DNA from: Thermosynechococcus vestitus BP-1
GTDB lineage: Bacteria > Cyanobacteriota > Cyanobacteriia > Thermosynechococcales > Thermosynechococcaceae
Direction of reading: 5' to 3'
DNA: 64,000 nucleotides
NCBI RefSeq assembly: GCF_000011345.1
Contig: NC_004113.1
Span: 1,550,001 to 1,614,000 of the forward strand
In this document: one piece after another, positions 4,554 to 30,010 of the stretch
How positions within the stretch are numbered: the first letter of the stretch is position 1
Layout: each line of letters starts with the position of its first letter
Program-made: the position numbers and the translations under genes
The notes under the pieces: generated by a model
The model's input: the letters and a program-made list of their open reading frames with translations, nothing else
Told to the model about the DNA's origin: nothing
Database searches by the model: none

Positions 4554-4705
4554 TCCACCCCAATTCTATACGGGTTCATTGCCAAACGGCTGTTCATCTT
4601 TACCTCCGAGAGACCCCTCCTTTAGGGAGGGGAGGGATAAGAGCGGCAGTCTATGACTGCCGAGTATAGTTGTGCTACTTACAAAATAACAAATATAATA
4701 TAGGC

Positions 4706-5878
4706 GTGGAAAAGGCTTTCAGTTACCGCTTCTACCCAACGACCGAGCAGGAATCCCTGCTTCGGAGAACATTGGGCTGTGTTCGGTTGGTTTATAACCG
4801 AGCACTGGCAGCCAGAACAGAAGCCTGGTATGAACGAAAAGAGAGACTTGACTACGTTCAAACCTCTGCCTTGCTTACTCAGTGGAAGAAGCAAGATGAC
4901 CTTCAGTTTTTGAATGAGGTTAGCTCTGTCCCCTTGCAGCAGGCATTGAGACATCTGCAATCTGCTTTCACTAACTTTTTTGCAGGTCGGGCAAAATATC
5001 CCAACTTCAAAAAGAAACGCAATGGCGGTAGCGCAGAATTCACCAAGTCTGCTTTTAGGTGGAAAGACGGAAAAGTATTCTTGGCAAAGTGCAACGAACC
5101 GCTGAATATTCGCTGGTCGAGACGGCTTCCAGATGGTGTTGAACCATCCACGGTGACCATCAGGCTTAACCCTGCTGGACAGTGGTACATCAGTCTGAGG
5201 TTTGATGACCCCAGAGATTTGAAACTGCAGCCCGTCAACCAGGCGGTTGGTTTGGACGTAGGGATTAGCAGTCTCATTACCCTGAGTACAGGGGAAAAGA
5301 TTGCCAACCCCAAGCACTTTAACCGCTACTACAAACGACTCCGTAAGGCGCAGCGGTCTTTGAGTCGCAAACAAAAAGGCTCTCGCAATTGGCATAAGGC
5401 GCGGTTGAAAGTTGCCAAGATTCACCAGAAAATCTCTGATGCCAGAAAAGACCATTTGCACCAGTTGACGACTCGATTGATACGTGAAAACCAAACGATC
5501 ATAATCGAGTCGTTGGCTGTGAAGAATATGGTCAAGAACCGTCAGCTTGCCCGATCCATCAGTGATGCTGGATGGGGCGAACTGGTACGGCAATTGGAAT
5601 ACAAGGCCCAGTGGTATGGTCGGACACTGGTGAAGATTGACCGATGGTTTCCCAGTTCTAAACGCTGTGGACAGTGTGGTCACATTGTTGAGCGGTTGCC
5701 ATTGAGCGTCCGAGAATGGGACTGTCCTAAGTGTGGGGCGCACCATGATCGGGATATAAATGCCGCTCGGAATATTTTGGCCGTGGGACACACGGTTACA
5801 GTCTGTGGAGCGGGTGTAAGACCTGATAGACATACGTCTGGAGGGCAACTGCGAAGAAGCAGAAAGTCCCAAAAGTGA
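4706..5878 (+). CDS. tnpB: TnpB, RNA-guided endonuclease of an IS605-type element
   Basis: The GTG at 4706 gives a 390-residue protein starting MEKAFSYRFYPT, the usual TnpB opening; upstream in-frame codons lie in the left end. The RuvC-like catalytic residues are present: Asp184 in GLDVGISS, Glu268 in IIIESLAV and Asp350 in HDRDINAARN. A zinc finger of two CxxC pairs (CGQCG, CPKCG) lies between the last two. Length and motifs fit an active TnpB, the nuclease that uses an omega-RNA from the right end of its element. It has no tnpA neighbour. Confidence 0.92.
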   Translation: MEKAFSYRFYPTTEQESLLRRTLGCVRLVYNRALAARTEAWYERKERLDYVQTSALLTQWKKQDDLQFLNEVSSVPLQQALRHLQSAFTNFFAGRAKYPNFKKKRNGGSAEFTKSAFRWKDGKVFLAKCNEPLNIRWSRRLPDGVEPSTVTIRLNPAGQWYISLRFDDPRDLKLQPVNQAVGLDVGISSLITLSTGEKIANPKHFNRYYKRLRKAQRSLSRKQKGSRNWHKARLKVAKIHQKISDARKDHLHQLTTRLIRENQTIIIESLAVKNMVKNRQLARSISDAGWGELVRQLEYKAQWYGRTLVKIDRWFPSSKRCGQCGHIVERLPLSVREWDCPKCGAHHDRDINAARNILAVGHTVTVCGAGVRPDRHTSGGQLRRSRKSQK

Positions 5879-5919
5879 TTTTGGGAGTCTCCCTGCTTTA
5901 GCGGGGGGAGGATGTCAAG
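5757..5919 (+). ncRNA. Putative omega-RNA (reRNA) scaffold at the tnpB 3' end
   Basis: In known IS605 elements the guide RNA scaffold overlaps the 3' end of tnpB and runs to the right end; the guide is the host DNA just outside. Here the segment holds stable hairpins, including one across the tnpB stop (TCCCAAAA/TTTTGGGA) and a GC-rich terminal one. It is almost identical to 28001-28164, where the rest of tnpB is gone, which suggests the segment itself is conserved. The 5' boundary is a guess; the 3' boundary is the element end. Confidence 0.55.
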
Positions 5920-27369: not shown

Positions 27370-28000
27370 TATTGCCAAATCAAGTTTTTATGAAAACACT
27401 CATCATTACTGTGGGCAATCGGCAAGTTGGCTGGCGGTGCCGCGATGGCATTGTTCGCAGTTTTGGGGCGGACGGCAGTCACAAGACTCCCCCTCACCTG
27501 GATGAACTGGATCGGGAATTTGGCGTTGCCCGAGGTTTCCATGATCCTGAGGGAAACTACCGCCACAGTGTGCGCTATTACAGTGTGCGCTATTTAAGTG
27601 AAATTGTTTATCAGCATTGTCACGCCAAGAGTGGCTTTTCACCCGTAGTTTTGCTGCTAGATGAGCAAATCTTGGCAAAACACTATGCCACGCCAACGGA
27701 AACCGCTGACGTGATTCTCTGGGGCAGCGATCAGCCGGAAACCGTCAGTTGGCAATTTCCTTCCATGGATACCTGCTGGCTAGGGGAGTTAATGGCAGGG
27801 GTGATTCGGCAGTGCTATCCCCACCTCAACGTCATGGTCTGGAACTGTCGAGTTGATCTGAACCACAGGCAACACCTATGGGACTTAACGGAAAAACAGT
27901 TAGAGCAATATATTGAGAGTTTGCCAGACAAAGCTGCTGGCAATTGGCAGTTGCAAATTCAAACCAAGGGGTCTGTGCCCCAAATTGCAGATGCTCTGAA

Positions 28001-28164
28001 CTTGACATCCTCCCCCCGCTAAAGCAGGGGGATTCCCAAAATCACTTTTGGGACTTTCTGCTTCTTCGCAGTTGCCCTCTAGACGTATGCCTATCAGGTC
28101 TTACACCCGCTCCACAGACTGTAACCGTGTGTCCCACGGCCAAAATATTCCGAGCAGCATTTAG
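28001..28164 (-). ncRNA. Orphan omega-RNA-like scaffold in the IS605 remnant
   Basis: This right-end segment is nearly identical to the putative omega-RNA of the intact element and keeps the TCCCAAAA-GTGA-TTTTGGGA hairpin. The adjoining host bases, which would be the guide, begin TTCAGAGCATCTGCAAT on the minus strand. Whether it is transcribed is unknown. Confidence 0.45.
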
Positions 28165-29013
28165 TCGGGTAGCAGGGGGGCATTGCTGCCCCCTAGCCCC
28201 CTAGGAACCGGACGTGCAAGTTTCCCCGCATCCGGCTCGAGCCCCCCAAGACCCCTCATTTAAGAGGAACCGGTTGTGCATGCAACCTTTACGATACTCA
28301 TCTACAGCCTCTCTACCTTTGGTGGAAGGTTTGGTGGAAGGTTGGTGACCGCACCAGTGACTCAAGATCACCGCCATTTGCTTTGTCACCATTAGGGAGG
28401 TTCTGTAGGTTTTCCCGTAATCGGGGACCAGCGGGAAGTCTGCCCTCTTTCGAGTCGGATGATGTTGAATGTCCTGCCAACATTCTCAATCCCTATCTAG
28501 CCCATTACAGGCTAGCATTCGCTTTTTCCCGCCTCCTCTACCCGCACCCTCATCAGCTTTCCTTGCGGTTTGCCTGCCTTGAATGTTCAAGGCGAAGATA
28601 CGGGCTTACCACGTTCCGCTTAGTTGACACGAGGGGTTAGGTGCTGACTATGCCCCGACGGATCAACATCCCCGTACACCGACGTGGAAGCGTTGTATCT
28701 TGTCCGCTTGCCGTTTTGGCTCAGGCCTGTCAGCGTCTTTGGCCTGTATGTGATAACGGGGCTTCTAACGTCACTTCACTTGCGTTCACCATACCCTTAA
28801 GCCTAGCTCCCTATCACCTGACGCTGGTGAAGTTGCTTCCTCCTCACGGATTCAGCTCCAACCTTACGGTTCGGGCTACGTTGTCGGGAGGGCTTCATAC
28901 CTGACCGTTGCCAGTCACGCATGCCTCCCTAGGCTACAGCTGGGGGAACAACCGGTCCCATTCTAGCTTGTTGGGCTAGTGGGTCCATCAACTTAAGCGG
29001 CTTCGTGTCGCAC
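28165..29013 (-). mobile_element. ORF-less group II intron, 849 bp
   Basis: The 5' end is GTGCGAC (29013 downward), fitting GUGYG. Domain V is at 28205-28238 and matches the 34-nt consensus, from GAGCCGGATGCG through GAAA to GCACGTCCGGTTC. A G/C-rich domain VI hairpin and a CCCGAC 3' end follow. The 8 nt before the 5' splice site (GGCGTGGA) can pair with TCCACGTC inside domain I (complement of 28681-28688) as IBS1/EBS1 with one G-U pair. No reverse-transcriptase reading frame is present, so mobility would need a maturase in trans; such ORF-less introns are known in Thermosynechococcus. Confidence 0.85.
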
Positions 29014-30010
29014 TCCACGCCTCACATTATAGCGATTATTCTGTGAGTAACACAACTATACTTGGCAGTCACAGACTATCGCTCCTATCCCTCCCCTCCC
29101 TAAAGGAAGGGGTCTCTCGGAGGTAAAGATGATTCCTACAGAGCCGCAACCGTTCTTTGATCTCGCTCATCCATCTGCGCGTGGCGCTGAATATTTTGAA
29201 GTGGTGTCTTTAGGTGCGGTCTTTTGGCCACTGGAGCAACAGCGGATTGCCGAAGTATGGAAACGGGGTGACTTTACTGCCGAAAAGGTACTCCTGGCCG
29301 CCCATCGCGATCGCTATGAGGCGCTCTATCAATTGGCCGATCGCCTTTCATTAGTAACCAACTGGAGGATTCAGGATTTTCTCGAGGGAATTCAGGGGAA
29401 AGGCTGGCTGGATCAAAAGCCTACCAAAGCAGTGATTCACAAAGATCAACGACAGCAGTGGTGTGAGGCAACGGTCAATCGTTGTCCCAATAGTGCAACA
29501 GCCAACAGCAAGTTCCTGAAAATTTGGGAATTTGAGCTACTGTCTGAGCTTGCAGCAGGAGAACGATACCCTAGCCTTTATGCAATTTGCCCAGATGCTT
29601 GAGCGGCTCCTGTTTTGGCAATGCGAACAGGAAGATTGGCGCACTCAGGGGCACTTAGGTGAGGAATTCTTGGGGGAAGGCAACTATTCGGGATCCAACA
29701 TTGGGGGTGCTTTGGCAAGCATGGATAAAAGTGGAGCAGCGATCGCCAGATGATTCTTTTGTGAAAAAGCTAAGGACGGTCAATGAATATCGCAATGGCG
29801 TCGTTCACCGCAACCGGGCGCTCAGCCCTGCAGAGTTGAGTCAGTTGGCAGATGTTTCCCCAGAGGTATCCCCCGCAGACATTCACCACGGGCTGTTAAA
29901 CATCCTTCGCGAAGTTCTCAAAAAGCCAATGGGTGAAGAGCAAATGCATCAAAAAGGGGTGGCGCGATCGCTCTACGAGTGGGGACTAGAGCAATTGCAA
30001 TCATCGTAGC

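Follow-up and report, generated by a model that had tools for sequence, protein, structure and literature searches.

An ISEL1 insertion sequence of Thermosynechococcus vestitus BP-1 carrying a group II intron in place of tnpB, with a probable origin in intron recombination

We describe a chimera of two mobile elements in the genome of this hot-spring cyanobacterium; it lies in the window, the whole stretch of 64,000 nucleotides analysed here (NC_004113.1, positions 1,550,001 to 1,614,000, forward strand). In this chimera, an ISEL1-type element of the IS200/IS605 group has lost 1046 bp of its tnpB gene and holds an ORF-less group II intron exactly where the missing segment had been. A second copy of the chimera lies elsewhere in the same genome, as does an element with the same intron in an otherwise whole tnpB. 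The account we find fairly probable is that a second intron had entered tnpB downstream of the first, that recombination between the two introns deleted the gene, and that the product was then copied between ISEL1 loci. The locus is instructive because its history is legible: a pair of group II introns lodged in the same transposon gene seem to have served as recombination sites, removing the gene between them without a scar. Elements without an intron, with one, and with the gene deleted are all present in this genome, which allows the succession of events to be argued from sequence. The case further suggests that group II introns can spread as DNA, with an insertion sequence as their carrier.

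The window element, locus L001, spans positions 28002-29127 on the minus strand (1126 bp) and consists of a 114-bp left end, an 850-nt group IIB1 intron and a 162-bp right end. Its parts, together with the host gene and an intact copy for comparison, are as follows (window coordinates).

4599 to 5918, plus strand: intact ISEL1 comparison copy, TnpB open, no tnpA
27390 to 28001, plus strand: csx1-like CARF-HEPN gene, 5' part (PADLOC PDLC01805, E 3.9e-63, profile positions 1-196)
28002 to 28163, minus strand: right end of ISEL1 (162 bp), running from the tnpB RuvC-III motif as far as the terminus; structured and resembling an omega-RNA
28163 to 28164, minus strand: junction of the intron 3' end with tnpB, GAC|TAAATGC, where 1046 bp of tnpB are gone (identical junction in L002)
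28164 to 29013, minus strand: ORF-less group IIB1 intron, 850 nt, family F4 of Mohr 2010, GUGCG...CUACCCGAC (Rfam RF02012 and RF00029; alignment with the other introns of the genome; PMC2882425)
28683 to 28688, minus strand: EBS1, TCCACG, intron domain I
28748 to 28753, minus strand: EBS2, TCACAT, intron domain I
29014 to 29127, minus strand: left end of ISEL1 (114 bp), including a subterminal hairpin and reaching GTGGA at the start of tnpB (alignment to 19 intronless copies)
29014 to 29019, minus strand: IBS1, CGTGGA, 5' exon, pairing with EBS1 at 6/6
29022 to 29027, minus strand: IBS2, ATGTGA, 5' exon, pairing with EBS2 at 6/6
29128 to 29132, minus strand: target pentamer TCATC adjoining the left end
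29128 to 30009, plus strand: csx1-like gene, 3' part, with a further frameshift near 29602-29659 (PADLOC PDLC01805, profile positions 209-341 and 378-481)

An earlier, sequence-only reading of this DNA had proposed a three-layer nest, with a group II intron inside an IS605 remnant inside a broken gene, and each layer is borne out: by Rfam, by alignment of the copies and by the interrupted csx1-like gene. A model search of the kind it had recommended matched both parts of the intron on the minus strand, group-II-D1D4-7 at 28955-28806 (RF02012, 125 bits, E 5.9e-26) and domains V-VI of Intron_gpII at 28240-28164 (RF00029, 60 bits). Two of its measurements needed adjustment. The intron, a group II intron by its Rfam domains, is 850 nt long (29013-28164), one more than the 849 bp given, and the element, real as drawn, ends at 28002, with base 28001 belonging to the flank. 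Its estimate of about 1046 bp of replaced tnpB is exact and corresponds to positions 113-1158 of the intact element.

At the 5' junction, which falls after GTGGA at the tnpB start, the IBS1/EBS1 pairing recognised in that reading is complete (CGTGGA/TCCACG, 6/6), and IBS2/EBS2 pairs equally well (ATGTGA/TCACAT, 6/6). At the 3' junction, the last intron base directly joins TAAATGC, which encodes part of the RuvC-III motif DRDINAARN. The intron of the window copy is probably still able to splice. In L002 and L003 the IBS2/EBS2 pairing has one IBS2 mismatch. The L002 intron starts with GTGCC and not GTGCG (L002:1615-1619), so splicing of that copy may be impaired. The introns of L001 (window 28318-28341, minus strand) and L002 contain a 12-bp tandem duplication, CCTTCCACCAAA, that is missing in L003.

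The host gene pieces (window 27390-30009) match one PADLOC CARF-HEPN profile in order. Uninterrupted csx1-like homologues stand at the corresponding site in two relatives, with 506 aa in G004 and 499 aa in G007. Some 42 nt that G004 has next to this position are lacking here, and the second half has a frameshift, so the csx1-like gene is a pseudogene carrying multiple lesions.

We surveyed the whole 2,593,857 bp genome for ISEL1 copies by their right end, which is present 22 times. Nineteen copies are intronless (1321-1323 bp, tnpB open), one carries both the intron and tnpB (L003), and two are tnpB-less chimeras (L001 and L002). The ends of the window element agree, as the sequence-only reading had stated for a single intact copy, with the element at 4599-5918, and likewise with the 18 other intronless copies. 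The second chimera, at C1:2169454-2170579, has flanks unrelated to those of L001. L003, 2160 bp long, shares both the intron and its insertion site with the chimeras; AAAGGC... and the remaining tnpB follow, and this tnpB is open after in silico removal of the intron; the intron in an intact tnpB that the earlier reading had proposed looking for is thus present in the same genome. A short layout lacking the intron, which that reading had named as evidence to the contrary, was found neither among the 22 copies in this genome nor in 10 other species of the genus.

ISEL1 shows the traits of IS200/IS605 elements, namely subterminal hairpins and insertion 3' of a fixed short target without target duplication; TCATC or TTATC adjoins the left end in 21 of the 22 copies. 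It has no tnpA. Thirteen Y1 transposase matches lie elsewhere in the genome, and none of the four tnpA loci that we inspected showed ISEL1 ends. One intronless copy (L050) has the outer 39 bp of its left end replaced by unrelated sequence, and beside another lies a 3' fragment of a group II intron (L042:263-377).

The insertion is lineage-specific. Across 11 genomes of the genus, the window's own included, the intron occurs in this genome only and was not found in the other ten, of which just one had a domain V-VI match, to a sequence of a different kind (G010, L112:277-353). The L002 site is uninterrupted in all ten. Its insertion point was compared nucleotide by nucleotide in five relatives, those with rows in the right orientation, the five reverse rows being left out. 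In these five, the empty site reads TCATC in two (L099 and L103) and CCATC, TCATT and GCATT in the other three. Farther afield, an exact-pattern scan of GTDB for the chimera junction returned 7 matches, which we take as chance since none contains a group II intron according to Rfam. The group II introns recovered by a plasmid search were all distant, with coverage of the query below 80% in each case.

Insertion of the intron at this ISEL1 site is already known. In the accessible part of their paper, Mohr, Ghanem and Lambowitz (2010, PMC2882425) describe F4 as three introns at one conserved ISEL1 site; our survey finds the same site and the same number, and we equate their three introns with L001, L002 and L003. 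The 28 domain V-VI matches in the genome equal the count of introns given there for T. elongatus BP-1. The labels F1-F6 used here were assigned by matching EBS groups to the descriptions in that part of the paper. The same portion of its text makes no mention of tnpB loss in two of the three F4 hosts, or of a 3' junction elsewhere in tnpB. Our literature search yielded nothing specific on a tnpB-deleted ISEL1 with an intron, or on group II introns in tnpB, and, within these sources, no publication describing the tnpB loss came to light. The view of the sequence-only reading that so exact a deletion is unusual is upheld.

How could the chimera have arisen? An ORF-less F4 intron would first have entered an ISEL1 copy just after the tnpB start, leaving tnpB whole, as at L003. 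Next, the RuvC-III codons downstream in such a tnpB (CGGGATA|TAAATGC) would have received a second intron, most probably an F6 member. The two introns would form direct repeats of about 850 bp, and recombination between them would remove the intervening 1046 bp. The product would combine the 5' junction of the first insertion with the 3' junction of the second around a hybrid intron, without a scar. Since both IS ends are kept, the chimera could later have reached two ISEL1 loci through transposition in trans or through gene conversion between IS or intron copies.

Several observations favour two recombining introns over a chance deletion. Between the junction, GAC|TAAATGC, and its putative parents, GAC|AAAGGC and ATA|TAAATGC, there is no microhomology. 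The downstream tnpB site suits family F6, whose EBS1 pairs there at 6/6 (3 wobble) and EBS2 at 4/6, a fit equalled by only 0.63% of 1103 tnpB positions; as six families were tried for an EBS match, the corrected weight is about 4%. The F6 member L013 naturally resides at GGAATA|T, a near-match to the GGGATA|T of the downstream site. F4 itself was rejected as the second intron, given that its EBS1 pairs at only 2/6 there, compared with 6/6 for IBS1 at the tnpB start. The 3' tail of the L002 intron, described below, is identical to that of an F6 intron. The earlier reading had offered two routes, recombination of two intron copies or a deletion ending at the intron 3' end, and the former is the better backed because of the missing microhomology, the downstream site fitting another local family and the F6-identical tail. 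The anatomy of the element, its junctions, the survey of copies and the lineage-specific insertion are directly shown, and we infer the second intron, the recombination and the manner of copying. Against the two-intron route, the genome retains no tnpB copy whose downstream site is occupied by an intron.

The competing route, in which one illegitimate deletion ran from exactly the last base of an F4 intron in an intact tnpB to the RuvC-III codons, has the merits of a single event and of a precursor state that exists at L003. We nevertheless regard it as unlikely: its endpoint must hit one exact base of roughly 2000 possible, its junction lacks microhomology, and it leaves unexplained both the F6-identical tail of L002 and the F6 fit of the second site. 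Microhomology at AAA was rejected, as it predicts GACAAATGC, and the observed sequence is GACTAAATGC. The order of events might also be reversed, with tnpB deleted first to give GGCGTGGA|TAAATGC and F4 homing into the shortened element afterwards. This is conceivable because IBS1 and IBS2 remained, and an F4 target requires little 3' exon sequence, the two sites sharing GGA. Yet the 19 intronless copies include no short one, G007 has ISEL1 ends only at the spacing of full-length elements, and the left end of the deletion must coincide exactly with the intron insertion point, the same coincidence that burdens the simple deletion; we therefore hold this order to be very improbable. We attach similarly little credence to partial reverse splicing, in which intron RNA joined the downstream site by its 3' end only, recombination with the intron already at the tnpB start then completing the partial cDNA. 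Such a course would account for the exact junctions equally well, with no need for a full second insertion, and would give a 3' tail derived from the incoming intron. No sequence feature sets it apart from the two-intron route, of which it is a variant.

The intron sequences, above all their tails, speak both for and against the two-intron route. Over its last 86 alignment columns the L002 intron is identical to L013; it differs there from L003 at 4 positions, all 4 in the state of L013 (permutation p 0.00024 and 0.00045, uncorrected for the nine donors tried). F3 introns carry three of these four bases. The tail of L003 could itself be the converted one, as it resembles ORF-containing introns (p 0.003-0.004). 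L001 is likewise mosaic toward F6/F3 when compared with L003 (permutation p about 5e-5), with part of this signal consisting of bases derived in L002 and L003 and not of an F6 donor. Its tail is not purely F6: at alignment column 799 the A specific to F6 is absent, and column 777 has T.

A simple tree of the three intron-bearing copies was rejected. L001 and L002 agree in the junction, the start of the right end, the 12-bp duplication and a right-end substitution of C by T. Derived sites in the left end and the intron instead unite L002 with L003 and are absent in L001; one of them is the IBS2 base mismatching EBS2. This conflict implies at least one exchange between copies, and such conversion blurs the order of events. 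The chimera thus appears to have been copied by transposition or gene conversion, two processes inseparable here.

Non-autonomous, MITE- or PATE-like derivatives of IS200/IS605 elements retain the subterminal hairpins and have lost the transposon genes. The chimera resembles them in keeping both hairpins without the genes, and differs in having a complete ribozyme in the gene's place. With neither a tnpA nor a tnpB ORF, and a longest stop-free stretch of 94 aa, it is expected to be a defective IS derivative. IStrons, in which a group I intron at the 5' end is fused to IS605 or IS607 (PMC4227781), similarly unite a ribozyme and IS200/IS605 ends in one element placed after a pentanucleotide. In contrast to IStrons, the intron of the chimera is of group II and internal, and no ORF is left, which sets the element outside that class; as the intron is internal, splicing leaves the IS ends in the RNA. 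The twintrons of T. elongatus, as presented in the accessible part of PMC2882425, are also mobile elements within mobile elements from the same intron burst; unlike in these, the outer element here is a DNA transposon, partly lost. We think it improbable that the chimera is a working composite, that is, a non-autonomous IS605 moved by TnpA in trans and maintained by the omega-RNA-guided TnpB of intact copies, with a self-splicing group II intron as its sole cargo. If true, it would be the group II counterpart of IStrons.

The ISEL1 right end, retained in the chimeras, has a strong fold (z -5.0), with ten predicted pairs showing changes on both sides across three species. This predicted structure fits an omega-RNA or TnpA hairpins.
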